The position numbers were made by a program, and so were the translations under genes. Positions 12,984 to 54,766 of a stretch of DNA of 57,696 nucleotides are shown here, piece after piece. The notes under the pieces were generated by a model. It had not been told where the DNA came from. It saw nothing but the letters and a program-made list of their open reading frames with translations, and did not search any database. The number at the start of each line of letters is the position of its first letter. Position 1 is the stretch's first letter. Source of the stretch: Candidatus Krumholzibacteriota bacterium (GTDB taxonomy: Bacteria; Krumholzibacteriota; Krumholzibacteriia; Krumholzibacteriales; Krumholzibacteriaceae); contig JAUWCL010000022.1 in assembly GCA_030609325.1 (NCBI GenBank), positions 1-57,696 on the forward strand, given 5' to 3'.

Positions 12984-13220
12984 TCCGGGTCGATCAGTTC
13001 TCGAGGAATATCACATTTAATGAGTACGAAGGCTTTTGCTCTCATACGAGCTCCCTTTCTGTACCGCGTCGATGTTCTCTCCCTTCGGTTCGAAATTATC
13101 GCAGGCACCCCGCGACGGTCAATACGATTTGGGATGACACCGCCGCGTCGAGGGATGTATTCTGGCCGGTGGACCGACCTTTTATAAAGGATGCGGCACG
13201 GCGCACGGCAGCGGCCTCTC

Positions 13221-15587
13221 ATGAACCGTAAGACATTCGTCATACTGCTCCTTCTTCTCCTCTGCCTCGCAAATCTGACGAGATGGGCGTACAGGTCACG
13301 CGTGAGTGGTGAACGATTCTCCGCCGAGAGCGCGGCCCATTTCCGCTATACGCGGATGATCGCCTCCGGAGAGATGGTTCCCCGCCTGGATACCGACGCG
13401 CAGTACCCGGAGGGCCTGAAGGTCTTCGAGGAGACCTCCATCGGGATGGAATATCTCTACGGCCTCGCGTGGAGACTCATGCCGGCGGGAAAACCCCCGC
13501 TGGACGTGTTCGTCCGCTGGTTCTCCGTCTTTCTGTTCACGTTGGCGGCCGTACCGCTCTCTCTTCTGTCAATCGATCTGTGGGGCAGGAGGAGCTCGGG
13601 GATAGTAACGGCCTTCCTATTCGCCGTCGCCCTTCCCGTAGCTGGCAGGTCGAGCGGATTCGATATCATCAGGGAGAATCTCACTCTGCCTCTCATCGTC
13701 TTTCACGCGTGGTTGCTTGTAAGAACGTTCCGGACCGGAAGCCGCGGCACTGCGGCCCTGTCGGCGGCTTTTCTTTTTCTCGCGCTGGCCTCGTGGCAGG
13801 GAACGCAGTTCTATCTCGTCCCTCTCGTCCTCTTTCTGGCGGCTCGGGCCGTGTCAGGAAAGAATCTGGAGAGTGAGAAAAAACGGGATAGAGGAAATGG
13901 AGAGACGGCCGCCGGTTGGGCAGTGGTCGCGGCAGCCGCCGCGGCAGCCGCTGTAGTCCCGTTTCTCAGGGCGGGCGGATTCCCGACATCCCCGACCGCC
14001 GCGCTCTGCGCCGGCCTGGCCGGAGCGATGCTGGCCGGCAGGTATGCCGCGCCGGGCAGGAAAGGCCTGGTGCCGCGCCTCGCGGCCTCGGCGGCGGGCG
14101 TCGGCGCCGTCTTAGTACCGGCACTGATCTCGGGAAGATACTTCGCCGCCTATTCACATTTTCTCGGATTGATCGCATACAAGCTGAGGTATATATACAA
14201 GCCGCACGATCCGGCCATACTGCCGTTCGATGTCAGGGCTTTCTGGGTGGGTCCGTTCCATTCGCCGGACCTTCTGCATCTCTTCGTCTTCGCGCTTCCG
14301 CTGCTGCTCCTCCTGCCCGTACCCCTGGGGCGTCTCGTGGGACGGGTGAGAGAGGGCGATTTCACCGCCGCCCTGACGGGCTGGCTCGCGGCGGTGTTCT
14401 TCGTCCTCTTCCTGCTGATGATGAGGATGCTGCCGTTCTTCGGAGTTTTCGCGATAATAATCGCAGGGGGGCTGGCCGCCGTAGGATCGACCGGACCTGC
14501 AACCGGAGAAAACGATCGGGCAGGCAGAGGAATGAGGATCGCCGGACACGCGGCGGCCGCGGTCATCGCCGTCGTGATGATTCTCCAGGTGCTGTTCTGG
14601 GAGGGACGGGCCGATATCTGGAGGCACGCTTCGAGAGTACTGGACCTCCCGCGCAGGTCGAAATATGTCGTATTTCCCTTCGGCCGCGATCCGGCAGGGG
14701 CGATGCTCGAGTGGATATCGTCCAATACGGATCGGGCAGACGTAATCATGTCCCTGCATTACCTGTCGCCCCAGATCCTCACCTATACGGGAAGGCCCAC
14801 GAACCTCAACGATTTCTTCGAGGCTCCGCGCATTCGGGCAAAGGCGAACGCGATGCTGCGCAGCCTCTATTCGAGCGAGGAGAGATTTCTCTCGTTCTGC
14901 GGGGAAAACAACAGCGACTACCTCGTGCTCAGCGCGGCTGTCGGATGCGATCCGACGCGCGACTCACCCCTGTACCAGGCGGGATTCGATCATATGCCCC
15001 CGGGATGCGCCGCCTATCGCCTGATGTTCGAGCCGCGGAAGCTCAGATCGTTCGATCTCGTATACGAGAACGAGATCTACCGTGTTTTCAGGGTCGGAGA
15101 GCCGCCCGTGGAGAGGCGGCGGACGGCATCCCCGCTTTTCTACAGGGGCGACCTGCTCCGGCGCTCCGACGGAGACATCGAGGAGTTCTACAACACGGTG
15201 AGGTACATGTATGCCGTGACCGTGCGTTCGTCGAGGCTGATCGGGGCGGGGGCGGAGGCAGAGGCGGAGAAGCTGCTGGCCGGCGTTCTGAAGATCGAAT
15301 ACTTTCACCCGGCCTGGCGGCTGCTCGACCTGCTCTACAGGAAGCAGCGTCTGACGCTCGAGCGGCTCGCGCTCGCCGAGTTCGCATGGTCCAGCGATCC
15401 GTGGCGCCCCGGGGTGTGCCTGTCCCTGGCCGGGAGCAGGCTCGCTGCCGGCGACAGGGACGGCGCGCGGGAAGCGCTGGGAGTCTGCTCCACCCTTTCG
15501 ATGACGGAGGGGGAGACAGTTCGGTTCAAACGCCTCGCGGAGCACGTAGGATTGAAAGACGCGGCTGGTACCGAACAGGGTGAGTGA
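13221..15587 (+). CDS. Large GT-C membrane protein, STT3/PglB-like topology
   Basis: A 788-residue protein with a membrane part of about 12 segments (residues 1-480) and a soluble C-terminal part (about 480-788). The first loop reads SAAHFRYTRMIASGEM then TDAQYPEGLKVFEETSIGME, close in layout to the first external loop of STT3/oligosaccharyltransferase-like GT-C proteins. The soluble part contains a segment (ISSNTDRADVIMSLHYLSPQ, then TGRPTNLNDF) like the periplasmic domain of STT3, and ends in helical pairs that could be TPR-like. ATG 13221 is chosen; a GTG-type extension to 13191 has no support. A glycosyl or oligosaccharyl transferase role is inferred. Confidence 0.65.
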   Translation: MNRKTFVILLLLLLCLANLTRWAYRSRVSGERFSAESAAHFRYTRMIASGEMVPRLDTDAQYPEGLKVFEETSIGMEYLYGLAWRLMPAGKPPLDVFVRWFSVFLFTLAAVPLSLLSIDLWGRRSSGIVTAFLFAVALPVAGRSSGFDIIRENLTLPLIVFHAWLLVRTFRTGSRGTAALSAAFLFLALASWQGTQFYLVPLVLFLAARAVSGKNLESEKKRDRGNGETAAGWAVVAAAAAAAAVVPFLRAGGFPTSPTAALCAGLAGAMLAGRYAAPGRKGLVPRLAASAAGVGAVLVPALISGRYFAAYSHFLGLIAYKLRYIYKPHDPAILPFDVRAFWVGPFHSPDLLHLFVFALPLLLLLPVPLGRLVGRVREGDFTAALTGWLAAVFFVLFLLMMRMLPFFGVFAIIIAGGLAAVGSTGPATGENDRAGRGMRIAGHAAAAVIAVVMILQVLFWEGRADIWRHASRVLDLPRRSKYVVFPFGRDPAGAMLEWISSNTDRADVIMSLHYLSPQILTYTGRPTNLNDFFEAPRIRAKANAMLRSLYSSEERFLSFCGENNSDYLVLSAAVGCDPTRDSPLYQAGFDHMPPGCAAYRLMFEPRKLRSFDLVYENEIYRVFRVGEPPVERRRTASPLFYRGDLLRRSDGDIEEFYNTVRYMYAVTVRSSRLIGAGAEAEAEKLLAGVLKIEYFHPAWRLLDLLYRKQRLTLERLALAEFAWSSDPWRPGVCLSLAGSRLAAGDRDGAREALGVCSTLSMTEGETVRFKRLAEHVGLKDAAGTEQGE

Positions 15588-15609: not shown

Positions 15610-16557
15610 TCAGAAGCGGTAGGCGGCGGTTACCCTGGTCTGCCTGCCGAGATCGTTCTCCGGGTCGAATCCGAATGCCAGCGCCAGCCTGGCGCCGCCG
15701 AACCCGGCGGAGACACCACACCACGGTATCGTCCTGCTGTAATTGACGGTCCGGACGTCCGCCCCGGCCTGCAGCCAGAGGATGTCCCTGATCAGGGTCA
15801 GCTCGCCTCCGAGACGGTAGCTGTTCAGCTCGCTATCACGGAAGACGACGTCGAACTCGGCCGAGAAACGCTCGTGAAGGAATTTCTCGAGCGAGGCCGC
15901 CAGGACGATGGCAGGATCGATCTCCCAGACGCTGTGCGGGTAATGGACCGTGCTCCAGACGTCCCTTAACATTGCCGCGAGCCACATATGCTTGCTCAGC
16001 CTCGTTGTGAAAGCGAGATCGATGGATGATCCCCAGGCCCCCGCGTCGTCGATATCGGACCAGCTCTTCATCGCTCTCCAGCCGACGCCGATGAAGCTGT
16101 ACGGGTTGAAGCTGAACGCGGCCGAGAAGCCCACGGTCCCCTCGTTCCAGCCCGATCCCTCGGAGAGTTTCAGCCCGAGATGAGATATCGTCATCGCCAC
16201 GGCGAGACGTCTGACCTCGACCGTGCCGTCCACCGAGGTTCGTGAATCGAGAAGACCTGTGCCGGCTGAAACGACTGTGTACAGATTGTCCATCCCGGGG
16301 ATCGGCCTGGTCGTTCCGATGCCGATGCCCGGCGTAGTGAGAAACACGAGGTTGGCCGGGTTCCAGTAGGCCGCCGCCTCGTCGCGGACGAGGATCGTGC
16401 CGGCGCCGCCGAGCGCCTGGCCGCGCGCATCCCATCCCAGCGGCAGGAAGGTTCCTCCGCGCGATCCCTCCCCGGCCCGCAGGGCGGGCGGATGCAGCAG
16501 TACGATCGCCGGAAGAAGCAGCAGGATCGCTGCCGTTATGAGAACACGCCTGACCAT
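15610..16557 (-). CDS. PorV/PorQ-like outer-membrane beta-barrel protein
   Basis: 315 residues with a signal peptide (LITAAILLLLPAIVLL) and alternating beta-strand character to a C-terminal aromatic (TRVTAAYRF). The N-terminal hallmark of the PorV/PorQ/UPF0164 family is clear: ARGQALGGAGTILVRDEAAA followed by YWNPANLVFL. In Bacteroidota PorV is the shuttle that receives type IX cargo at the Sov translocon. The start codon follows the stop of the upstream Ig/FlgD-like gene with no gap (TAG then ATG at 16557), so the two are almost certainly co-translated. A similar pair occurs at 33.4-35.3 kb. Confidence 0.85.
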   Translation of the reverse strand: MVRRVLITAAILLLLPAIVLLHPPALRAGEGSRGGTFLPLGWDARGQALGGAGTILVRDEAAAYWNPANLVFLTTPGIGIGTTRPIPGMDNLYTVVSAGTGLLDSRTSVDGTVEVRRLAVAMTISHLGLKLSEGSGWNEGTVGFSAAFSFNPYSFIGVGWRAMKSWSDIDDAGAWGSSIDLAFTTRLSKHMWLAAMLRDVWSTVHYPHSVWEIDPAIVLAASLEKFLHERFSAEFDVVFRDSELNSYRLGGELTLIRDILWLQAGADVRTVNYSRTIPWCGVSAGFGGARLALAFGFDPENDLGRQTRVTAAYRF

Positions 16558-18153
16558 CTATCTCACCACCGCGATGAATGCCTTGTCGACGGTCCTGCCT
16601 CCCGAGTGCTCGATAGTGATCACGACGAGGCAGGGGCCGTTCTTCACAGTTTCCCCGTCGTCGTTGGTAAGGTCCCACGCGATGTCGAAGCTCGTCCCGG
16701 GACCGGGCACGGCGATCCTCCTGATCCTCTCGCCCCTCATGTCGTAGATCTCGAGGGTCACGGAGGAAGCAGTCTTAGCGGAGACGACCTGGAATATATT
16801 GGGACACCTGAAGACCTCGGGATATGTGATACCCGTAGTCGGGTCGAGAGTGGTGTGTACCGTGTTGGAACTCGCACTTTCATTGCCCGCGTTGTCCTTC
16901 CCGACGGCCCGGAACTCGTTCAGCCCCTCGCTGAGGGTGAGCTCGAAGGGCTCTCCAGGCGCCAGACCGGCTGTTATGAACCAGGTGCTGTCGATGGAGC
17001 CGCCCGCCTGCCGGTAGACGAACAGGGAATCGGTGTCGTCGTCGTACTGGATGTAGAGGTTGAGCTCGAGCTGTATCATCCTCTCGGGAGGATCCGCTAT
17101 CAGGGGTGGTGTCGGAGGCGTCCTGTCGAGCTTGAATGAGATCTGCTTGTTCGACTGGTTGCCGAACGGATCCCCGGCGAATGCCTTGAGCATGTAGCCG
17201 CCATCGACGAAGCCGGCGTCGCCGTTCACAGTGTCGGGTGTGTCGAATCGCCAGTATAGGGTGTCGGCGTCGAACCAGGTCGAATCGGCGGGGAACCGGT
17301 TGCTCTCGACCATGTCGGCGCCTGTCCACGAAAGCTCCAGTGAGCTGACACCGCTGTGGTCGAATGCCCGCCCGATGATCTCGTGCGGGACCTCGCGCGT
17401 GTTTGAGGGCACATCGGTGAGTATCTCGAGCTCAGGGCCGTCCGAATCCACGAAGACACTTCCGCTGTCGGCGTCGGAGTTTCCCGCTTCGTCGTCCACC
17501 GTGATCGTGATGACGTGGAAGCCGCTCTCGGCGGCGGCGGGTTTCCAGACGCCGGTCCACTCGCCGTCGCCCTGGACGTCAACCGGATCGACCGTCTCGA
17601 GATCCGAAGGATTTCTGACGGTCATTCTCGCCGACGCTCCCGTCTCCCAGCCCGATACGCTGAAATAGACGGTAACCGAGGCGGAAGTGTCGGGCCATCC
17701 CGGCGAGAAGACGCCGGGCTCTATCCGTTCGATGTTCACCTGCGGCGATGTGAGATCGATGATGACGGTCCTCAGGATACTCTCGCCTGTGCTGCCGGTT
17801 GCCTCGTAGAGGTGGAGGTCGTACTCGCCCTCGGGCAGGACGGTGCCTGTCCAGTCGGTGCCGCCCCAGAAGGCCGCGCGGTTGCCCGCGGCGGCGGAAG
17901 TCTCGAACATAAGGGTATCATATACGGTCGGCGCCGTTTTGTCCCTGACCGTCACGATCAGGGTGTCGACCTGGGCCGAAAGGTTTACTGTGACGGTCAT
18001 CTCGTCCCTGACGCCGTCACCGTCGGGCGATATCGAGGGGAAATTTATGAAGAGGGAGGCGCTTCCCGCCCAGGCCGCAAGAACGGCCGCGGAGGAGATC
18101 GCCAGTATTGCATGAATTGTCCGGATCGTGCGGCGCACGGGTACACCTCTCAT
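16558..18153 (-). CDS. Secreted multi-domain Ig-like protein with FlgD-like C-terminus
   Basis: 531 residues. After a signal-type helix comes INFPSISPDGDGVRDEMTVT, the motif that starts FlgD-Ig-like and gliding-motility-like repeats. Several beta-sandwich units follow, each with LTSPQVNI, DRTPPTPPL or DNAGNESA-type Ig/Big signatures. The end is a FlgD-like domain (VTLEIYDMRGERIRRIAVPG, WDLTNDDGETVKNG). No enzyme motif is visible. It is most simply a surface or secreted structural protein exported by a type IX-like route. The adjoining PorV-like gene may be its dedicated outer-membrane partner. It is divergent from the Na/Pi symporter across about 350 bases. Confidence 0.75.
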   Translation of the reverse strand: MRGVPVRRTIRTIHAILAISSAAVLAAWAGSASLFINFPSISPDGDGVRDEMTVTVNLSAQVDTLIVTVRDKTAPTVYDTLMFETSAAAGNRAAFWGGTDWTGTVLPEGEYDLHLYEATGSTGESILRTVIIDLTSPQVNIERIEPGVFSPGWPDTSASVTVYFSVSGWETGASARMTVRNPSDLETVDPVDVQGDGEWTGVWKPAAAESGFHVITITVDDEAGNSDADSGSVFVDSDGPELEILTDVPSNTREVPHEIIGRAFDHSGVSSLELSWTGADMVESNRFPADSTWFDADTLYWRFDTPDTVNGDAGFVDGGYMLKAFAGDPFGNQSNKQISFKLDRTPPTPPLIADPPERMIQLELNLYIQYDDDTDSLFVYRQAGGSIDSTWFITAGLAPGEPFELTLSEGLNEFRAVGKDNAGNESASSNTVHTTLDPTTGITYPEVFRCPNIFQVVSAKTASSVTLEIYDMRGERIRRIAVPGPGTSFDIAWDLTNDDGETVKNGPCLVVITIEHSGGRTVDKAFIAVVR

Positions 18154-28054: not shown

Positions 28055-28564
28055 TCAGTCGTTCCGCCATCCTTCGCGGTGTATGCGGGATTCGTCGTAC
28101 TGCGTCCTCGCTTCCTTCTCCTCGGCGGGATGCCCGAGGGCGATGAGGCTCAATATCCCGATATCCGCGGGAATGCCGAGAACTGCCTTGATGGCCGCAA
28201 CCCGTTCCTCCCGCGGATGGCACCCGAGCCAGCAAGAGCCGAGCCCGAGAGCAGCCGCCGCGACGAGGATGTTCTCCGTAGCGGCGGAGCAGTCCTGTAT
28301 CCAGAAATCGGGTGAGATGTCGATCTGGCCGCATACAGCGATAGCCGCTGTCGCTTCGAACAGCATCTTTCCGTACGGGTGGGCTTCCGCAAGCCTGTCG
28401 AGGGTCTCGCGCGAGGTCACCGTCACGAAATGCCACGGCTTGAGATTCCGGCTCGACGGCGCCGCCATGCCGGCCTCGAGGAGCCTGACCATATCCGCGT
28501 CGCTGACGCGCTCTGCGGTATACCTGCGGATGCTTCTCCTCGATAGTATGATATCTATGGACAT
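28055..28564 (-). CDS. Nitroreductase family protein
   Basis: 169 residues, an FMN-binding oxidoreductase of the short NfsB/Frp type. The N-terminal ILSRRSIRRYTAERVSDADM, the substrate/FMN region AAPSSRNLKPWHFVTVTSRE, and GLGSCWLGCHPREERVAAIK near the end are diagnostic. These enzymes use NAD(P)H to reduce nitro groups or quinones or, in some cases, act in biosynthesis. ATG 28564 is chosen; the frame to 28615 overlaps the upstream methyltransferase. In this operon it may be a tailoring reductase/oxidase rather than a detoxifier (inference). Confidence 0.88.
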   Translation of the reverse strand: MSIDIILSRRSIRRYTAERVSDADMVRLLEAGMAAPSSRNLKPWHFVTVTSRETLDRLAEAHPYGKMLFEATAAIAVCGQIDISPDFWIQDCSAATENILVAAAALGLGSCWLGCHPREERVAAIKAVLGIPADIGILSLIALGHPAEEKEARTQYDESRIHREGWRND

Positions 28565-28611
28565 GAGGATTCCTTTCTGGAATGTCGCTTCGACCAGCCC
28601 GGAACGCTGCG

Positions 28612-29412
28612 TCAACCGGACCGGAGCCTCTGTCTGAGAGCTTCGTAGAGCAGTATCGCGGCCGCCGCCGAAACGTTGAGCGAATCGGCCGCGCCCCTCA
28701 TGGGGATTTTAACCCGGACGTCGGCCGCTTTCAACCACTCATCGCCGAGCCCCCTGTCCTCGCTTCCGAGAACGATTGCCGAGGGCGATGCGAGGTCGAT
28801 GTCGCTCCAGGGAGTTCTAGCGTCCGGGGTGGTCGCCATGATTGCTATCCCGTTCCCCTTCAGCCACGATATGACGTCCGCCGCGGGGGCGACCGCCTTC
28901 GGGACTGAGAATACCGTTCCGAGGCTTGCGCGGATCACGTTCGGATTGGAGATCTCGGCGGACGGATCGCTGACTATTACGCCCGTGGCGCCCGCTCCGT
29001 CAGCCGACCGGAATATGGCGCCGAGGTTTCCCGGCTTCTCGAGATGGTCGACGACGAGCAGCAGCGGATTGTCGCCGGTTGGAATATCTTCGAGCGGATG
29101 ATCCCGCCGCTCGGCGACTGCGAGGATCCCGCCGACGCTCTCTCTGTAGGCGATCTTCCCGAAGACCGCACTGGAGACCTCTGTCATCTGCGCGCCTGCA
29201 GCGGCGAGACGTTCAAGCAGTCTTCCTTCCTGTTCGCCATCCGCGATATCGGGGCAATAAAAGACCTCACGGAATTCGACACCCGCATCTGCGGCCCTGG
29301 AGATCTCCCGGACGCCCTCGACGGGCATCAGCCCCGTGCGTGTTCTCTCGCTCCTGCGGCCGAGCCTGATTACGGATTTTATCCTGGGGTTGGAGGGACT
29401 GGTGATCTTCAT
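28612..29412 (-). CDS. SpoU/TrmH-family RNA 2'-O-ribose methyltransferase
   Basis: 266 residues. The N-terminal substrate-binding part opens with SPSNPRIKSVIRLGRRSERT. The SPOUT trefoil-knot domain shows all three motifs: DHLEKPGNLGAIFRSADGAG (motif 1), AIVLGSEDRGL (motif 2) and KIPMRGAADSLNVSAAAAIL (motif 3). It resembles RlmB/TsnR-type 23S rRNA methyltransferases. It probably serves ribosome modification and is only a passenger in the biosynthetic operon. It begins 6 bases after the PP-loop gene stop. Confidence 0.88.
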   Translation of the reverse strand: MKITSPSNPRIKSVIRLGRRSERTRTGLMPVEGVREISRAADAGVEFREVFYCPDIADGEQEGRLLERLAAAGAQMTEVSSAVFGKIAYRESVGGILAVAERRDHPLEDIPTGDNPLLLVVDHLEKPGNLGAIFRSADGAGATGVIVSDPSAEISNPNVIRASLGTVFSVPKAVAPAADVISWLKGNGIAIMATTPDARTPWSDIDLASPSAIVLGSEDRGLGDEWLKAADVRVKIPMRGAADSLNVSAAAAILLYEALRQRLRSG

Positions 29413-29418
29413 CTTCTG

Positions 29419-30414
29419 TCAATCCATCTCGAGGCGCTTCTCTACGTAGGCGACCATGTCCTCGTCCTGTTCCTTCTCGAGGCGCTCGATCGCTTCGTCG
29501 CGGTCCATGTATCCCTCCCTGACGAGCTTGGCCAGCTCGAAAGCGTAGGGATTGTAGCCGAACCTGTCCATGTGTATCTTGTTGGCGAACGCGTTGAGGA
29601 GACAGTTGGTCGAGTTCGGGTCCGTATCGGTCGGCCTCTCCCAGCCGAGCTTCCTGATCGAATCGTGTATCTGGGCCTCATCGTACCGGAGGAAAGCGAG
29701 AGGGCTGATGTTGTGGGGGAAGCGCTCCTCCATCGCGAAATGCTCCTCGGTGAGGAAGTAGTTCTCGAGTCCTGAGCCCGCCGCCTTGTACATCGGATCG
29801 AAGAGGGCCTTCTGCATGCTCCTGATCATCGACGGGTTGTTCTTGAATATCGACGCGGCGATCGGGGCCTGGCCGGGCGACCAGCCGTACACGATGAACG
29901 GGATGTTGCTCTCGACGGCCATGCGAAGCGCGATGAACTTTACTATTCCCATGCAGCTCGTGCAGATCGTGCTTGCTCGCTCAAGAGTCTTCCGCGCGTA
30001 CATCTCCGATTTCTCCGCCTCGCCGAAGAGTTTCCTGAGGATGTCGAACCTGGGCTTGTAGATTATGAGGTCGACCCCGAGCCCCTCGACGACATTACGG
30101 ATGTTTTCGAGCGATCTCGGTGAGATGAATCCGTTGTCGATGGTGAGGGCGAGGATCGAGAGATCGTACGTCTCCTTGAGCACGGCGAGAGTATAGGTCG
30201 AGTCCTTCCCGCCGCTGTAGGCTAGGAGGCAGTCGTGGCCGCCATCCCGCCGACGTTCGTCGAGGAGTTTCTCGAAGCGTTTGCGGTACTTTTCGATCGA
30301 TCTGTCGAGGTGTTCCTGCCCGCGGAAGCTGCGGCAGAAATTACATACGCCTTCATCGTCGTACGATATGCCCGGGAACGTCTCGGGCAGAACACATCTG
30401 GTACATCTTTTCAT
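29419..30414 (-). CDS. PP-loop ATP pyrophosphatase, WbpG/PseA-like amidotransferase family
   Basis: 331 residues. Two CxxC pairs at the N-terminus (Cys4, Cys7, Cys24, Cys27 in MKRCTRCVLPETFPGISYDD and GVCNFC) can bind zinc. The ATP loop is LLAYSGGKDSTYTL (SGGKDS 67-72), and a third CxxC lies in STICTSCMG. This layout is that of the 'N-acetyl sugar amidotransferase' group, which adenylates a carboxylate or carbonyl oxygen before amination or thiolation. No HisH/HisF-type partner is encoded next to it. It lies 24 bases downstream of the NadE-like gene, so the two ATP pyrophosphatases are probably made together. The substrate is unknown. Confidence 0.75.
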   Translation of the reverse strand: MKRCTRCVLPETFPGISYDDEGVCNFCRSFRGQEHLDRSIEKYRKRFEKLLDERRRDGGHDCLLAYSGGKDSTYTLAVLKETYDLSILALTIDNGFISPRSLENIRNVVEGLGVDLIIYKPRFDILRKLFGEAEKSEMYARKTLERASTICTSCMGIVKFIALRMAVESNIPFIVYGWSPGQAPIAASIFKNNPSMIRSMQKALFDPMYKAAGSGLENYFLTEEHFAMEERFPHNISPLAFLRYDEAQIHDSIRKLGWERPTDTDPNSTNCLLNAFANKIHMDRFGYNPYAFELAKLVREGYMDRDEAIERLEKEQDEDMVAYVEKRLEMD

Positions 30415-30438
30415 CTTTCGTCCTTTTCGTTTCCGAAA

Positions 30439-31407
30439 TCAGAATTCTGTCGTTGGCGGCAGTTCCCTCAGGTGGCGCGTCGCTTCGCGCTTGCGGGCGA
30501 GATCTTTCCACCCGCGCTCTATCTGCTCGACCGTCAGGTCGAGCGCGGCCGCCACTTCCTCCTTCGGAATGTTGTTCTCTACGCCGTACAGGATATAGTC
30601 GAGTTTGTCGTAAGGCATGCAGAAATAAAAATCTTCGTCGCTCACCACGTAGCTGTACGTGTCTGGGCTCGGAGTCCGCGAGAGTATCTCCTCGGGAACG
30701 CCGAGATATCGCCCGAGGTCGTATACCTGCTTCTTGTAGAGGTTGGCGATCGGCTCGATATCGACGCCGCCATCGCCGAACTTGACGAAGAAACCCTGGA
30801 TCATCTCCGACAGGTTGGTCGTTCCGCATACTATGTAGTGTCGTTTCTCCGCCTCGTAGTAGAGCTGTATCATGCGCGTGCGCTGCTTGATGTCATTCGC
30901 TGCCATCAGCTCGAGGTAGTCCTTCAGAGGAAGGCGCTTCTTCTTCACGGTGCCGTCCTCGAGGAGCACTTCGATCGAATAGGCGTTGATCCTGTCCTCG
31001 TCGAGCAGGTTCTGCGGAAGCACGAGCCTGAACTTGAACGGCTCGGGGATGCCGGGAAAGAGCTTCCTCACCACGGTGTCTCTCTTCTCATAGACCCCGA
31101 AGGACTCGAGGTAGGGGGAGATGTTGACTTCCTTGTACTCGATGCCGAGCTGTTCGGCCTGCATGGCGCCGTACTCCCGGCTGACCGGGCTCGAATCGGT
31201 CTCGGGCAGAAGCATCCCGAACACCTTGTCAGCCCCGAGGGCGCGTACGGAGAGGGCCGCGGACACGGCCGAATCGAGCCCTCCGCTGAGGCCGATCACG
31301 ATGCCCTTGCGGTTGAAGTAGTCGGAGACCGAGGTCTTTATCATCTTCTCGATCTTCAGGCACGCTTTCTCAGGATCGATATCAAGAACGCTCCTGCTGA
31401 ATGCCAT
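30439..31407 (-). CDS. NAD synthetase-like ATP pyrophosphatase
   Basis: 322 residues. The P-loop is VIGLSGGLDSAVSAAL (SGGLDS 41-46). Downstream motifs are CGTTNLSEMIQGFFVKFGDG and GVDIEPIANLYKKQVYDLGR, as in ammonia-dependent NadE. There is no N-terminal nitrilase/glutaminase domain. It could be the cell's NAD synthetase, but its position between an AMP ligase/ACP pair and a second PP-loop enzyme suggests an amide-forming step on a pathway intermediate (inference). A charged insertion (LLEDGTVKKKRLPLKDYLEL) around residues 147-167 is longer than in typical NadE. Confidence 0.8.
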   Translation of the reverse strand: MAFSRSVLDIDPEKACLKIEKMIKTSVSDYFNRKGIVIGLSGGLDSAVSAALSVRALGADKVFGMLLPETDSSPVSREYGAMQAEQLGIEYKEVNISPYLESFGVYEKRDTVVRKLFPGIPEPFKFRLVLPQNLLDEDRINAYSIEVLLEDGTVKKKRLPLKDYLELMAANDIKQRTRMIQLYYEAEKRHYIVCGTTNLSEMIQGFFVKFGDGGVDIEPIANLYKKQVYDLGRYLGVPEEILSRTPSPDTYSYVVSDEDFYFCMPYDKLDYILYGVENNIPKEEVAAALDLTVEQIERGWKDLARKREATRHLRELPPTTEF

Positions 31408-31437
31408 CTCCAGTCATCCTTTCAGTATTCTGTCTGA

Positions 31438-32973
31438 TCAAAGCTCCTTTTTTGTTATCTTTCCCGAAGAGGTCTTCGGCAGGGAATCCCTGAACTCCAC
31501 CGTCTTCGGCACCATGAAATCCTCGAGATGCTTCATACACCATGCGAGGATCTCCTTCCCGGTGCGTGTCGACCCTTCCTTCAGCACGACGAAGGCCTTT
31601 ACCGCCTCGCCGAGTATCTCGTCCTCGACCCCGACGACCGCCGCTTCGACGATGTCGGGCATCTCGTAAAGTACACTCTCGACCTCTTTGGGGCTTACCT
31701 TTTCGCCGCGACTTTTAATTATATCATCTTTTCTTGACAGAAAATAGAGATACCCGTCCTTGTCCATAGTGAAGAGGTCGCCCGTGTAGAGCACCTTTTC
31801 CCACGGGCAGGGCCCGGGCCGGAGCATCCGGTCCGTCTCTTCGGGAAGTTCCCAGTATCCCTTCATCACGTTGGTACCCCGCACGACGAGCTCTCCAAGG
31901 GTGTCAGGCGCGGTTATGACGTTGTCGTCCTCGTCGACGATGTAGACCTGTTCGTTGGGCATGCCCCTGCCGACGGAGGTGGGACGCGTCTTCAGCTCGG
32001 ACGGCGGGAGGTAGGAGACCCTCTTGCATTCGGTCAGGCCGTACATCGAATAGATCGCCGCGTCGGGGAATATCTCCTGGAGCCCGAGGATGTGCGAGAC
32101 GGGCAGTGCCGCTGCGGTATTCGTGAGGTACCGCAGGTGAGGGAAGCTCTCCTCCCTGAGCTTTTCGAGCTGCAGGAGGATCGCCGATATCGTCGGCACG
32201 ATCGGCAGGCCGGTGACCCGCTCCTTCTTCATCAGGTTGATGACTGCGTACGGATACAGAAAAGATCTCTCGAGGACGAGCGTTCCCCCGAATTGCGCCG
32301 CCATGATCGCCTGGTAGAGGCCATAGTCGAACGAGAGGGGAAGGACGCTGAGGATGATGTCATCCTCGACGTTCTCGAGATATGTCGTTATCGAAGTCGA
32401 CGCGGATACCATGTTCCTGTGCGTCAGCATGACGCCCTTCGGGTTGCCCGTGGTTCCCGACGTGTAGATCAGCGAGGCGAGGTCGATATCGATCGCCTTT
32501 CGGGGCGGTATCGATATGTCGCCGTTCTCCGCGGCATCGTCCCAGGACAGGACCGCATGGGAGGCACCCTCGATCTCGACGGGATCTCCCGCGACGATGA
32601 CGGTCCTGAGCGATTTTGCCGAGGCCGCCGCTCCGCCGGCCGTCGACCATTTGCTGCTGTGCGTTATCAGCGCTGTCGCCCGGCAGTTGTCGAGGATGTA
32701 CGCGAGCTTTTCGGCCTTGATCGTCGGATTAAGGGCGACGAAGACGGCGTCGGCCTTGAGGATGCCGAATATCGAGATCACAGTCTCGGGCGAGTTGTCC
32801 ATCAGCACGGCGACCCTGTCGCCGTACTCGACACCGGCGCCGGTCAGGGACCGCGCAAGGCGGTTTGCCCGCGTCTCGATCTCACCCCAGGTCAGGCGAG
32901 CGGCGCCCGCGATCAGTGCGGTCTTCTGCGGGAGCCGTTCGGATGTGTTTTCCAGGAATTCCTGTAGCAGCAT
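31438..32973 (-). CDS. AMP-forming acyl/aryl ligase acting with an acyl carrier protein
   Basis: 511 residues of the ANL superfamily. The motifs are LASLIYTSGTTGNPKGVMLT (A3), YSMYGLTECKRVSYL (A5), YTGDLFTMDKDGYLYFLSRK (A8) and the C-terminal lysine in LPKTSSGKITKKEL. The overall sequence recalls the acyl-CoA ligase type found beside exosortase-A EPS loci, which are also paired with a stand-alone carrier protein. The gene follows the ACP gene by 32 bases. The simplest reading is that it adenylates an acid and loads it on that ACP. Confidence 0.85.
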   Translation of the reverse strand: MLLQEFLENTSERLPQKTALIAGAARLTWGEIETRANRLARSLTGAGVEYGDRVAVLMDNSPETVISIFGILKADAVFVALNPTIKAEKLAYILDNCRATALITHSSKWSTAGGAAASAKSLRTVIVAGDPVEIEGASHAVLSWDDAAENGDISIPPRKAIDIDLASLIYTSGTTGNPKGVMLTHRNMVSASTSITTYLENVEDDIILSVLPLSFDYGLYQAIMAAQFGGTLVLERSFLYPYAVINLMKKERVTGLPIVPTISAILLQLEKLREESFPHLRYLTNTAAALPVSHILGLQEIFPDAAIYSMYGLTECKRVSYLPPSELKTRPTSVGRGMPNEQVYIVDEDDNVITAPDTLGELVVRGTNVMKGYWELPEETDRMLRPGPCPWEKVLYTGDLFTMDKDGYLYFLSRKDDIIKSRGEKVSPKEVESVLYEMPDIVEAAVVGVEDEILGEAVKAFVVLKEGSTRTGKEILAWCMKHLEDFMVPKTVEFRDSLPKTSSGKITKKEL

Positions 32974-33005
32974 CGCTCTCCACGGGGCTATCTGCCTCTA
33001 TCGAT

Positions 33006-33254
33006 CTAGTTCCCGATCTTCCTCTGGGTGTAAGCGGCAAGCTTCTCGATCGAGTCGAAGTTATCGGGAATGAGTTCCTCGTCTCCCACCTCGATCTCGA
33101 ACTCGTCCTCCACGAACGCGACGAGCTCGAGGATGCCCGTCGAATCGATGATCCCCTTCTCGAGGAACGAATCGTCGTCGGCTATCGACTGATCGGCGGA
33201 ACCGAGGAGAATATTTTCCATGATGTATGTGCGAATCTGATCTTTCATCTCCAA
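33006..33254 (-). CDS. Stand-alone acyl/peptidyl carrier protein
   Basis: 82 residues, acidic, four-helix profile. The phosphopantetheine site is GIIDSTGILELVAFVEDEFE with Ser38 in DST; the usual DSL is changed to DST. Helix III (EELIPDNFDSIEKLAAY) is typical. It is the first gene of the nine-gene operon, so the pathway probably begins with loading of this carrier by the ligase just downstream. It is distinct from housekeeping AcpP, which would read DSLDTVELVM. Confidence 0.88.
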   Translation of the reverse strand: MEMKDQIRTYIMENILLGSADQSIADDDSFLEKGIIDSTGILELVAFVEDEFEIEVGDEELIPDNFDSIEKLAAYTQRKIGN

Positions 33255-33440
33255 ACCGGACCTCCCTGGAACTTCTTATATAGGTCTCTTATGCAACAAC
33301 GGTCTGACGTCCCCGTATAAAAGCGCGAAATTCTGCTGAATAGGCCGCGCAAAGCCGCTGTGGCGCTTTCCGGCGACAAGCAACCTTACGCAGAAGATGT
33401 ACCAATCTTCAAGATAATATTATTTCAGGGAGTCTGCCGC

Positions 33441-34382
33441 TCAGCGTATCCCGAAATAGAGCGAGATTATATGCTGGAGTCCCAGGTCGCCGTAGGGAGT
33501 GGCCGCGTAATCTACGGCGATGCGATTGTCCAGGTCTACTCCCGCTCCGAACGTGAACCCGTCCCCGGCCCGGCTCTTCCTGCCGCACCAGCCGCCACGG
33601 ACGGCGACCGTCCCGGCGATCGTGAGCTCGACCCCGGCGCCGATGTATGAGTCCTCAAACCTCGGCTTGACGAAGTCCAGGCCGAGAGAGAATCCGACGC
33701 TGCCTGCCGCCGCCTTCGTCGTGTAGACCGCGCCGGCGCGGATCGTTGTCGGAAGAGGCTCCTCTTTCTCGACGAACTTGATGTCGGGTCCCATATTCTG
33801 GACGGTGAGGCCGACCTTAGTGCCGACCACGGGGATGTCGTAGAAAGCGCCTATATCGACTCCGTAGCCGCCCGCAGACCACTCGGAAAGCGTTTCCCTG
33901 AAATACTTCAGGTTGACGCCGGCCGAGAAGTTCGCAGTCGGGCCGAAGCCCAGGCCGACAAGCGCCTGGTAATTGTAGTTCTTGAGGGGATCGGTCATCT
34001 GACCGGATTCGTCGTATCCCTGAATGTCGTTTCCGTACTCGTAGACCAGCCCGCCGCCGAGCGTAAGCCATTTCGAGACGCGGGTGTTGCCCGACAGGCT
34101 GGTGTACCTCGTATCCATCAGCCACTCGGAATGAAACAGGCCGAAGCCGCTTCGCTTCATCGACGGCAGTGTTGCCGGATTGGAGAGCCAGTTGAAGGGG
34201 TCGTCGTCAAGCGCTGCCTTGACCTCACCCATCGCTATCGACTTGGGGCCCACGGGTCTCAGGAGATAGCCGGCGCCGGCGCTGCCCGGTCCGTCGTTGG
34301 CTCTGACGGCCGGCGCCGAGAATATCGATGCCATGAGGAGCGCCAGGATTATCGCTGTCTTGTATGCTCTGTGACGTCTCAT
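33441..34382 (-). CDS. PorV/PorQ-like outer-membrane beta-barrel protein (second copy)
   Basis: 313 residues. A signal peptide (AIILALLMASIFSAPAVRA) is followed by LLRPVGPKSIAMGEVKAALD and WLSNPATLPSM, the PorV-family N-terminus, and then alternating beta-strands to the end (IISLYFGIR). It follows the Fn3/CTD gene by 21 bases. A near-identical but truncated copy of its first 49 codons lies at 54587-54733. Role by family: outer-membrane receiver/shuttle for C-terminal-domain cargo, or a plain outer-membrane lipid-transport barrel. It is only distantly similar to the PorV-like protein at 15.6 kb. Confidence 0.85.
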   Translation of the reverse strand: MRRHRAYKTAIILALLMASIFSAPAVRANDGPGSAGAGYLLRPVGPKSIAMGEVKAALDDDPFNWLSNPATLPSMKRSGFGLFHSEWLMDTRYTSLSGNTRVSKWLTLGGGLVYEYGNDIQGYDESGQMTDPLKNYNYQALVGLGFGPTANFSAGVNLKYFRETLSEWSAGGYGVDIGAFYDIPVVGTKVGLTVQNMGPDIKFVEKEEPLPTTIRAGAVYTTKAAAGSVGFSLGLDFVKPRFEDSYIGAGVELTIAGTVAVRGGWCGRKSRAGDGFTFGAGVDLDNRIAVDYAATPYGDLGLQHIISLYFGIR

Positions 34383-34403
34383 ATGCTATCCTGTTTCCTC
34401 AGG

Positions 34404-35309
34404 TCAGTTGACAATCATAATGGGCCGTTTGTCGAATACTTCGCCGCCCGAATCTGTCGTCACGACATAGTAGACGCCGCTCATGACCTGGCTGCCGTTC
34501 CGGTTCTCGCCGTCCCAGTACATCGCGTGCTGCATTCCGATGTCCTTGCTCCATACCTCGAGCCCGTTTCCGTCGTAGATCGCCACTTTGCCGTTCTCGG
34601 GCAGGTTCATCAGGCTGAGACTGCTCGTACCCGGATGATACGGAACCGGGAAGATGCTCAGCGCCGGCGCCGACAGAGGGGTCGGGTTCTCGCCGGTGAA
34701 GACGAACGTATCGACCGCCGACACGATCATGCTGTTGTCGTTGTCATAGGAGACGGCTCTGAGATAATACGTCGCTGGAGCGATGAGCTCGCCTGTCGTG
34801 CTCGAGTGGGCCTGCTCGTAACTGGCGTCGTCCCAGGTCGACATCGAGTCGAGCGTGGCGTCGTTGTCGTACTGGATGAACCCTATCGTCGGGAGCTGGG
34901 TCTGCCAGTCGACGTCGAGGCCGTCCGTGCCGGCAGGCTGGATGTCAGTGATCTCGCAGAGGCTTTTAGTTCCCGCGTCCGCGTCCTGAGGGATGGTCAT
35001 TCCTGAGACGAGATTGGAGAAGAGACCTCTGGTGCCTTCGGCGTCCTTTGCCTTCAGGCGGTAGAAGTAGAATGTGCCCTTCTGGAGGTCCGTATCCACG
35101 TAGGTGGTCGTCGAGACATCGACGCTGTCGATTGCCTGGAAACCGGCGTCCGAGGAAAAGGACCTGAAGATAATATATCCGGCTACTTCGGGCTCCGGAT
35201 TCGGAGCCCAGCTGATCATGTAGCTCGTCGTCGACTGGGCCGCCAAGGGTGCCAGAGGGACTATGATAAGAAGAAAGATCAATGATGCTGTCCTGGCGAT
35301 TCTTCTCAT
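34404..35309 (-). CDS. Secreted fibronectin-type III protein with C-terminal sorting domain
   Basis: 301 residues. A signal peptide (TASLIFLLIIVPLAPLAAQ) leads into an Fn3 domain (SWAPNPEPEVAGYIIFRSFS) and a second beta domain. After the linker GENPTPLSAPALSIFPVPYH comes a FlgD-like tail (MNLPENGKVAIYDGNGLEVW) ending VFDKRPIMIVN. It is typical surface/secreted cargo of a type IX-like system, and no catalytic motif is visible. ATG 35309 is chosen for GGAGAG upstream; the longer form uses TTG 35345. It precedes a PorV-like gene in the same operon. Its last 64 codons recur in decayed form at 54361-54554. Confidence 0.8.
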   Translation of the reverse strand: MRRIARTASLIFLLIIVPLAPLAAQSTTSYMISWAPNPEPEVAGYIIFRSFSSDAGFQAIDSVDVSTTTYVDTDLQKGTFYFYRLKAKDAEGTRGLFSNLVSGMTIPQDADAGTKSLCEITDIQPAGTDGLDVDWQTQLPTIGFIQYDNDATLDSMSTWDDASYEQAHSSTTGELIAPATYYLRAVSYDNDNSMIVSAVDTFVFTGENPTPLSAPALSIFPVPYHPGTSSLSLMNLPENGKVAIYDGNGLEVWSKDIGMQHAMYWDGENRNGSQVMSGVYYVVTTDSGGEVFDKRPIMIVN

Positions 35310-35965
35310 GGTCTTTCTCTCCGTCTTACTTTCGATGCTGCTCAAAGGATGAATTTACAGTGCTCTGCAATCCGATTATGCCGTCAGATTGCATTCTGTG
35401 ACACTCGTTGCATTATCCTCCATTTCCGTGGGGCTGTGATCCGGAGAATAGCGTTCCTCATCGTTACCTTCCGTTGTTCATCGAATCCGATGTTGTCCCA
35501 TGCGACGGGTGGATTCCTTGATTCTTTTCTTAATCTGAATGACCGGTAAGCGCAAGCGCAATTTTGCTGCCAAGAAGAAACGACAGTCGGGTGCGGGAAT
35601 CCTGAAGAACAAGCCGGATTCGGATAAGATTGCGTAACTGTTCATCTTAAGGAGAACAAGTCATCCAGGATGTCATGGCAGCGGATGGGGCAATAAAAAT
35701 AAGGAGAGTCCCTCATGACCTTTAACGTCCCTGTGCTGCAGGATGCCGGAACCCGGCTCGTGGAGAAGTACCCCGTGGAACAGGTATCCGAATGTCCCTG
35801 AAAAACGGTAGTATTCGGGAAAGGACCGTGATATGCTTGGTCGTAGACTGAATATCCTGTTATTGCAATGGCTTACATAATCGATGATTGGGCCGACACT
35901 GATGTCCGGGATGATGTCCCGGGCATCATTTGACTGTCTGAAAGAGCTTGGGGAGCGTAGACACC
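35310..35965. other. Intergenic region with small ORFs and a hairpin
   Basis: About 650 bases without a convincing gene. Two tiny frames have partial support. 35539-35637 encodes 32 residues, very Lys/Arg-rich (MTGKRKRNFAAKKKRQ). 35715-35801 encodes 28 residues (MTFNVPVLQDAGTRL) behind AAGGAG at good spacing. A stem GATGTCCGGGA (35901-35911) / TCCCGGGCATC (35917-35927) with a 5-base loop lies just before the acetyltransferase gene and could be a terminator or leader hairpin. Confidence 0.35.
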
Positions 35966-52989: not shown

Positions 52990-54099
52990 ATGAGCGATTA
53001 TATATGGGTTGGACTGGATGTGCACGTGGAATCTATCACCGCCGCCATACTCGAGGGGGGCAGCCATGAGCCTGAGGTACTCAAGCTCAGCGGCGACCTT
53101 AACAAGGTCCGCCGCCTGATGCGACGTCTCTCGAAGAAGGGGCCGGTGCGTTCTTGTTATGAAGCCTCGGGAGCAGGCTTTGTCCTTCACCGCAGGCTCA
53201 AGAAGGACGGCTTTCACTGCGAGGTGATAGCGCCGTCTCTTATACCGAGAAAGCCAGGAGACCGGCGCAAGTGTGACCGTCTCGATGCCGTGATGCTGGC
53301 AAGACTCTATCGCAGCGGTCATCTTACGCCTGTGCATGTGCCCGATCAGTGGCAGGAAGCTGTCCGCCAGTTGATACGTCTTCGTTGCTCGTACCAGTGG
53401 CAGACCAAGTCCACGAAGCATCGTATCTACGGTATCCTTAAAGCTCATGGGTATATCTATCGCGAAGGCAAGACGCTCTGGACGAAGAAACACAAGATGT
53501 GGCTTGCGAAGCTTCGCAGAGAGCTTGAGGGTCCGCTGCATACGGTGCTGGTGACCGAGCTCGAGCACTTCGAGTACCTCGAGATGCAGCGGGGAGCTCT
53601 CGACGGGGAGATCGACCGGTATGCACAGCAGCCGCCTTACCGTGGAGCAGTCGAGGCGCTCTGTTGTCTTCGGGGAGTAAAGACGCTTACGGCGATGACG
53701 CTACTGAGCGAGATAGGGGATATAGACAGGTTCCCCACCCCGAGAGCTCTTATGGCCTACTTCGGCCTTGTGCCCACCGAACGCTCGAGCGGAGAGAGGG
53801 AGAGAAAGGGACCTATCACCAAGGCCGGCAACTCGCACGCAAGGCGCATACTGATCGAAGCCGCCTGGAACAACAGGCACAGAGCCGGTGCAGATCTTAT
53901 CATGAGCAGGCGCAGGCAGGGACAGCCTGCAGAAGTTGTAGCAATCGCGATGAAGGCGCAGCACCGCCTCTCGAAGCGGTTCTACCATCTCGATCAGAAG
54001 AAACACAGAAATAAGGTAGTTGTTGCAGTGGCAAGAGAACTCTGTGGCTTCGTCTGGGCGATAATGAAAGCAGCGCCCCGCTTGCGGGACGCTGCATAG
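52990..54099 (+). CDS. IS110-family DEDD transposase/recombinase
   Basis: 369 residues. The RuvC-like DEDD domain has Asp10 (WVGLDVHVES), Glu58 (SCYEASG), and Asp96/Asp99 (KCDRLDAVMLA). A helical spacer is followed by the Tnp_20 domain (LLSEIGDIDRFPTPRALMAY, FGLVPTERSSGE, GPITKAGNSHARRILIEAAW); the serine of SSG near 266-267 is the likely recombination nucleophile. In studied members a bridge RNA from a non-coding end guides target and donor choice. AAAGGAG precedes ATG 52990. Full length and uninterrupted. Confidence 0.92.
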   Translation: MSDYIWVGLDVHVESITAAILEGGSHEPEVLKLSGDLNKVRRLMRRLSKKGPVRSCYEASGAGFVLHRRLKKDGFHCEVIAPSLIPRKPGDRRKCDRLDAVMLARLYRSGHLTPVHVPDQWQEAVRQLIRLRCSYQWQTKSTKHRIYGILKAHGYIYREGKTLWTKKHKMWLAKLRRELEGPLHTVLVTELEHFEYLEMQRGALDGEIDRYAQQPPYRGAVEALCCLRGVKTLTAMTLLSEIGDIDRFPTPRALMAYFGLVPTERSSGERERKGPITKAGNSHARRILIEAAWNNRHRAGADLIMSRRRQGQPAEVVAIAMKAQHRLSKRFYHLDQKKHRNKVVVAVARELCGFVWAIMKAAPRLRDAA

Positions 54100-54354: not shown

Positions 54355-54554
54355 TCAGCCTGATGAACCTGCCCGAGAACGGCAGGGTGAAAATCTACGA
54401 CGGAAACGGGCTCGAAGTGTGGCGAAATAAAATTGGCACGCAGGCTGCTATGAACTGGAACGGCAGCCAGGTCATGAGCGGCGTCTTTTATGTGATAATG
54501 CCTGATTCAGGTGGCGAAGTGTTCGACAAGCGGCCCATCATGATAGTCAACTGA
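54355..54554 (+). pseudogene. C-terminal relic of an Fn3/sorting-domain protein
   Basis: 54361-54554 encodes 63 residues that match the last 66 or so of the secreted Fn3 protein at 34404-35309 (MNLPENGRVKIYDGNGLEVW to VFDKRPIMIVN), with one small internal deletion (the DGENR step before NGSQVMSG). Nothing of the signal peptide or Fn3 part is present upstream, where the IS110 right end lies. It is the CTD half of a decayed cargo gene. Confidence 0.85.
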
Positions 54555-54586
54555 CTCGAGGAAACAGGATAGCGTAAGGATATAGT

Positions 54587-54766
54587 ATGAGACATCACAC
54601 AGCATACAAGACAGCGATTATCCTGGTGCTCCTCATGGCATCGATGTTTTCGGTGCTGGCCGTCAGGGCCGACGACGGATCGGGCAGCGCCGGCGCCAGC
54701 TATCTCCTTAGACCCGTGGGTCCCAAGCCGATCAGGGAGGTCGAGAGCAGGCACGCACACTGTTGA
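54587..54766 (+). pseudogene. Chimeric ORF: PorV-like N-terminus fused to a glycosyltransferase tail
   Basis: 59 codons. Residues 1-49 (signal peptide AIILVLLMASMFSVLAVRA, then LLRPVGPKPI) copy the start of the PorV-like gene at 33441-34382. The remaining ten residues (EVESRHAHC) copy the last codons of the glycosyltransferase at 39102-40262, in frame to its stop. The junction is at about 54733-54737. It follows the Fn3 relic in the same order as the intact cassette at 34 kb. Confidence 0.85.

Follow-up and report, generated by a model that had tools for sequence, protein, structure and literature searches.

Background

Two kinds of described gene pair in type IX secretion (T9SS) come closest to the pairs considered here. 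The P. gingivalis proteins PorU and PorZ, which retain their C-terminal sorting domains (CTDs), stay bound to PorV and PorQ at the cell surface (PMC5562754, PMC8545088). A type B substrate of F. johnsoniae needs an SprF-like barrel, encoded directly downstream, for its secretion and location (PMC12618676), and barrels of the PorP/SprF type act as anchors (PMC9143113). Type A CTDs are said to share one PorV (PMC12618676), and a review has proposed that cognate PorV-like barrels shield the CTD from cleavage (PMC10202324). Private shuttles have previously been described mainly for type B/SprF pairs, which involve another barrel family and belong to Bacteroidota. Further PorU/PorV-like families are already named in NCBIfam as PorU2/PorV2 and a T9SS-dependent inactivated M6 protease (NF052324, NF052325, NF052323); a literature search found no paper describing PorU2 or a PorU2/PorV2 pairing, and none on PorV in Krumholzibacteriota. 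To our knowledge, the T9SS of Elusimicrobiota is little described.

The window analyzed here is a stretch of 57,696 nucleotides from a Candidatus Krumholzibacteriota bacterium. It has two intact gene pairs, E and F, in which a CTD protein is followed on the same strand by a PorV-like barrel (Table 1). Like PorU-PorV and PorZ-PorQ, such cassettes join a CTD surface protein to a barrel of the PorV/PorQ family, and the host genome has a clear PorU directly before a barrel, a pair already known from Bacteroidota. The P. gingivalis papers describe two pairs, whereas here there are about seven classes per lineage, a genome can have as many as some 30 barrels, and the cassette cargo bodies are unrelated to PorU or PorZ. 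The type B/PorP-SprF pairs of F. johnsoniae have in common with the cassettes the substrate-then-barrel order, several paralogous pairs per genome and orphans of both kinds. They differ in that the cassette barrels lie on the PorV/PorQ side of the superfamily, with no match of the window barrels to PorP/SprF models (TIGR03519, PF11751) up to an E-value of 0.1, and in that the hosts are Krumholzibacteriota, Elusimicrobiota, Calditrichota and others rather than Bacteroidota. Pairs E and F are also outside the NCBIfam PorU2/PorV2/M6 families.

It seems reasonably likely that the cassettes encode cognate pairs: the barrel would take its CTD partner from the SprA translocon and hold the CTD at the surface uncleaved.

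Table 1. Features of the window and cassettes of the host genome
Feature	Window coordinates	Strand	Description
P0003, barrel gene of pair F	15610..16557	-	divergent PorV-like barrel
P0004, upstream gene of pair F	16558..18153	-	signal peptide, Ig-like domains, C-terminal FlgD-type CTD
P0001, barrel gene of pair E	33441..34382	-	PorV/PorQ-family outer-membrane barrel
P0002, upstream gene of pair E	34404..35309	-	signal peptide, fn3-like domain, C-terminal FlgD/CHU_C-type domain (CTD)
IS110-family transposase beside decayed copy	52990..54099	+	NF033542 249.7 bits, cut-off 140
Decayed partial duplicate of pair E	54355..54732	+	end of cargo gene and start of barrel gene
Cassette A			PorU, then barrel, then a second, M6-like CTD protein
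Cassette B			850-aa protein upstream of barrel
Cassette C			M6-like protein upstream of barrel
Cassette D			CARDB-repeat protein, then barrel with TPRs
Cassettes E, F			the two intact pairs of the window

The gene pairs of the window

The first-pass annotation had described both intact pairs, and its coordinates, strands and gaps (0 and 21 bases) are all borne out. In pair E, P0002 comes first, and the 21-base gap holds a purine-rich ribosome-binding stretch ahead of P0001. An alternative TTG start of P0002 is also open at 35345. In pair F the TAG of P0004 is followed at once by the ATG of P0003, the junction reading ...GATAGATG.... Signal-peptide-like stretches are found at the start of all four proteins (P0001, P0002, P0003 and P0004).

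Both cargo proteins had been assigned a FlgD-like C-terminal domain, and Pfam FlgD_ig confirms it in P0002 (30.0 bits) and P0004 (56.6 bits, cut-off 27). The same stretch of P0002 matches CHU_C (PF13585, T9SS type B CTD) with 28.7 bits, just above the cut-off of 27. The CHU_C score of P0004 is 18.7 bits and is located at the N-terminal Ig domain; this protein also has a Big_13 domain (37.3 bits). The type A CTD models are under their cut-offs in P0002 (TIGR04183 17.5, cut-off 23; PF18962 13.5, cut-off 27) and have no match in P0004. An fn3 match in P0002 (21.9 bits) is under the Pfam cut-off. The C-terminus of P0002 is similar to the end of PorZ (E 1.7e-7), and the best equivalog matches of pair E are PorQ for the barrel and the PorZ CTD for the cargo, both far under cut-off.

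The barrels had been placed in the PorV/PorQ family, which stands for P0001 (NF033709 136.9 bits, cut-off 90) but not for P0003, which scores 34.7 bits over its N-terminal part only. Both are under the equivalog cut-offs of 250 for PorV proper (NF033710; 52.4 for P0001, 25.6 for P0003) and 220 for PorQ proper (NF033711; 86.4 and 19.3). AlphaFold models built from orthologue alignments predict a PorV fold for each. The model of P0001 (pLDDT 82) has PorV 6h3i_F as its best PDB match, with a TM score of 0.76; that of P0003 (pLDDT 72) is closest to PorV 8gl6_F (TM 0.70), followed by 6h3i_F (TM 0.65). Since its family score is under cut-off and its TM scores are 0.65-0.70, P0003 is PorV-like by predicted fold and not a family member. 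The two barrels are only distantly alike, as had been noted from the start, and the nearest named relatives of P0001 are in Candidatus Krumholzibacteriota genomes.

FadL-type channels are also among the best fold matches, and a class B cassette adjoins what looks like a TonB-dependent receptor. The pair might form a transporter, in which a nutrient channel of the FadL type is served by the CTD protein as substrate-capturing surface subunit and the use of the T9SS by the exported half is incidental. This is very unlikely, since both barrels have their highest TM score in the PDB against PorV, P0001 is above the PorV/PorQ family cut-off and the cargo domains are very varied across classes.

Polysaccharide-type genes lie around pair E (window about 28284-50400), and those near it include a WbuX-like sugar amidotransferase, an exosortase-A-associated-like acyl-CoA ligase, glycosyltransferases, a GNAT, a heparinase-like protein, a PgaB-like deacetylase and an asparagine synthase. 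Because PorZ of P. gingivalis binds anionic polysaccharide, a link between pair E and these genes is conceivable by analogy. Pair F is adjoined by a convergent gene for a Dpy19/STT3-like membrane protein with TPRs (window 13191-15587), and several relatives have a similar-sized gene in the same orientation beside pair F (L096, L098, L102, L111).

In one relative (G006), pair E is 76-83% identical to that of the window and the F barrel 48%. Transfer of the two genes of pair E on their own was considered and rejected. The SpoU-methylase gene directly beside pair E in that genome (L077, G006:C186, compared with window 28284-35473) shows 88% DNA identity as well; therefore, any transfer would have taken in a longer stretch than the pair. 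The ligase, NAD-synthase and amidotransferase genes (window 29.4-33.4 kb) are missing between pair E and the SpoU-methylase gene in G006.

A third, decayed pair had been listed at 54355-54766 as a separate case. It proves to be a partial duplicate of pair E, with 81% identity to 34618-34237 over 394 columns with 28 gapped positions, and is therefore no independent case of pairing. The adjacent IS110 transposase is possibly linked to the duplication.

Type IX secretion in the host genome

The host genome (2.63 Mb, 95% complete) encodes an SprA/Sov translocon (TIGR04189, 482 bits with frame neighbours, one frame being of 2163 aa) and a PorU sortase (NF033707 544.8 bits, cut-off 420) directly upstream of a PorV-family barrel. 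Cassette cargo would probably be secreted through SprA. The model for GldM, part of the T9SS motor, had no match in five genomes and likewise none in any of the controls; therefore, nothing follows from it on the motor, and its absence was dropped as a finding.

Eight places in the genome match the PorV family, and there are 39 FlgD_ig domains. A same-strand CTD gene immediately precedes six of the eight barrels; the two unpaired ones are PorV2-like and BamG-like. Counting Pfam FlgD_ig matches alone, a match lies just upstream of 4/8 barrels, for which P is about 4e-6 given about 38 FlgD_ig genes among an assumed 2400 genes. Most of the other CTD proteins (about 30) are not paired with a barrel.

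The class C cargo matches NF052323 with 191.5 bits and one barrel (C50) matches the PorV2 model with 129.8 bits, both under cut-off, and the class D barrel (C33) is the sole one above the Pfam PorP_SprF cut-off. Some cassette barrels have extra C-terminal parts (L042 5733-7622; L123 5860-7140; L139 2644-3909), which are TPRs in class D and a FlgD-like domain of its own in class G. At locus L040 (1778-10238), PorU, a PorV-like barrel and a second, M6-protease-like CTD protein stand in a row, followed by two small genes.

Adjacency in relatives and other phyla

The expectation that the CTD/PorV adjacency would be enriched in relatives holds. Among the Krumholzibacteriota regions (88 barrels), some of which were picked as orthologues of E and F, a same-strand CTD gene occupies position -1 in 60/86, +1 in 2/86 and -2 in 2/70. 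A subset of five genomes (the host, G008, G009, G019 and G028), which took in every listed barrel bar one weak match, has a CTD gene at -1 of 37/51 barrels. The effect extends to other phyla. Loci fetched through the barrel alone have a CTD gene at -1 in 24/41 and at +1 in 0/42, and a census of four genomes (Elusimicrobiales, Calditrichaceae, Neomarinimicrobiota and Coatesbacteria) counted a CTD protein upstream of 38/61 barrels and downstream of 3/59. The Fisher P values for upstream versus downstream are 1e-22 for Krumholzibacteriota, 3e-10 for the barrel-fetched loci and 6e-12 for the census. These counts cover phyla other than Bacteroidota and rest on mechanically called ORFs in genomes that are mostly MAGs. 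Host-genome CTDs, unlinked ones in the large majority plus the linked ones, served as seed of the CTD profile, which was then iterated without using position; this seeding could favor linked CTDs somewhat, but the effect in the host genome is already visible with Pfam FlgD_ig alone.

Cassettes occur in Krumholzibacteriota and at least five other phyla, with about seven pair classes per lineage, and the classes are kept across the bacterial class. In nearly all relatives with both genes on the contig, the CTD neighbour of the P0003 orthologue is the same. Many cassette junctions overlap by 1 or 4 bases. Apparent CTD-barrel fusions in long open frames (G013, G024) were rejected as read-through in GC-rich DNA, because a separate start and signal peptide mark the barrel and no CTD match lies within the long frame.

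Large expansions of PorV-family barrels, with 30-38 matches per genome, are seen in FCPU426, Calditrichaceae, Poribacteria and Elusimicrobiales (G036, G037, G040, G042). The FCPU426 genome has 38 matches and the Elusimicrobiales genome 32, and 15 of the 20 barrels read in the latter are paired. An SprA-like protein was found in 17/17 genomes of other phyla tested, 4 of them above the model cut-off. Those of Elusimicrobiota (G030-G035, G038, G039, G042) are diverged, mostly in frames of about 1350-1830 aa, and are under the SprA cut-off.

Matching of CTDs and barrels

When each non-self barrel and, independently, each CTD was assigned to its nearest reference cassette, the two classes agreed in 48/53 pairs. 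In the CTD tree, classes A, B, E, F and G each form one clade in at least 57/60 bootstraps. Of the 17 genomes with a P0001 orthologue, 16 also have a P0002 homologue, as against none of the 13 without (Fisher 1.2e-7, a value that ignores kinship). In eight of the co-occurrence genomes, a longer P0002 homologue is found elsewhere or not directly beside the barrel gene, so that the partnership is independent of linkage. These patterns would agree with private binding of the CTD by its neighbouring barrel. Against it, only 6/15 non-self class E barrels have the adjacency, the other 9/15 being without an adjacent CTD gene. Co-divergence of cargo CTDs and barrels, which the first-pass annotation had proposed as a check, is unsupported across the paralogous classes, where their distances are uncorrelated (Mantel r=0.12, exact permutation P=0.41); therefore, between classes the sequences give no sign of partner co-evolution for specificity.

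This lack of correlation would also fit if the cassettes were only duplicates of an old PorU-PorV operon, kept adjacent for co-expression with T9SS output and supplying interchangeable shuttles for many CTD proteins. PorU-PorV is itself among the cassettes, most host CTD genes have no barrel and unlinked P0002 homologues persist, all of which agree with such an inherited neighbourhood. It is nevertheless unlikely. The N-terminal parts of the cargo are unrelated (C25, M6-like, CARDB, fn3, Big), yet the class of the CTD continues to agree with that of the barrel. Gain and loss of P0001 go along with gain and loss of P0002, also in genomes where the two are unlinked. Moreover, with 8 to 38 paralogues per genome the barrels are more numerous than a general shuttle would require.

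With a local support of 0.994, the linked CTDs (that of PorU among them) split from 26/27 unlinked CTDs of the host genome, but the exact split is recovered in only 19/60 bootstraps. An unlinked CTD that groups among the linked ones (L022) was looked at and dismissed, no barrel following it. The split bears on whether the barrels might be dedicated shuttles without anchoring, each collecting only its neighbour from SprA and passing it on to PorU for cleavage of the CTD and for attachment or release of the cargo. PorV acts in this way for type A cargo (PMC5562754), and PorU is encoded in the host genome. A recycled shuttle, however, needs no one-to-one gene pairing, and the known stoichiometric gene pairs (SprF/SprB and PorP/PG1035) are anchors (PMC12618676, PMC9143113). 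The linked CTDs, moreover, group with the PorU CTD, which is reported to be uncleavable, and not with the unlinked CTDs, a split that is weak by bootstrap. Dedicated shuttling of this kind is thus quite unlikely.

Proposed function and significance

The interpretation of the cassettes as cognate, surface-retained pairs would work as follows. The cargo would be an exported protein that carries a CTD for type IX secretion. Both genes are probably on one transcript, and their stop and start codons often overlap or abut. At the SprA translocon the PorV-family barrel would take over its own partner and hold its CTD, keeping the partner at the cell surface. A CTD held in this manner would not be cut off by PorU, so that the partner may be retained without CTD cleavage. 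The CTD proteins without a barrel of their own presumably use a shared PorV. The original suggestion of cargo-dedicated receivers appears partly supported, and by analogy with PorU-PorV and PorZ-PorQ, holding of the partner at the surface may fit the known paradigm better than a shuttle does.

Many exported proteins of these bacteria probably have a private receiver or anchor. A wider generalization is more doubtful and is offered tentatively: outside Bacteroidota the T9SS may run largely on the basis of one surface protein to one PorV-family barrel, with dedicated receivers (some 30 per genome in Elusimicrobiota, Calditrichota and others) holding uncleaved cargo, and a single shared PorV with sortase release would then be a special case.

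The dozens of natural CTD/PorV-barrel pairs in at least six phyla provide ready matched and mismatched partners for finding the determinants of specificity. They also allow a test of the proposal that a cognate barrel protects its CTD from cleavage (PMC10202324). Finally, the cassettes would allow a simple prediction of which exported proteins remain on the cell surface in uncultured phyla.
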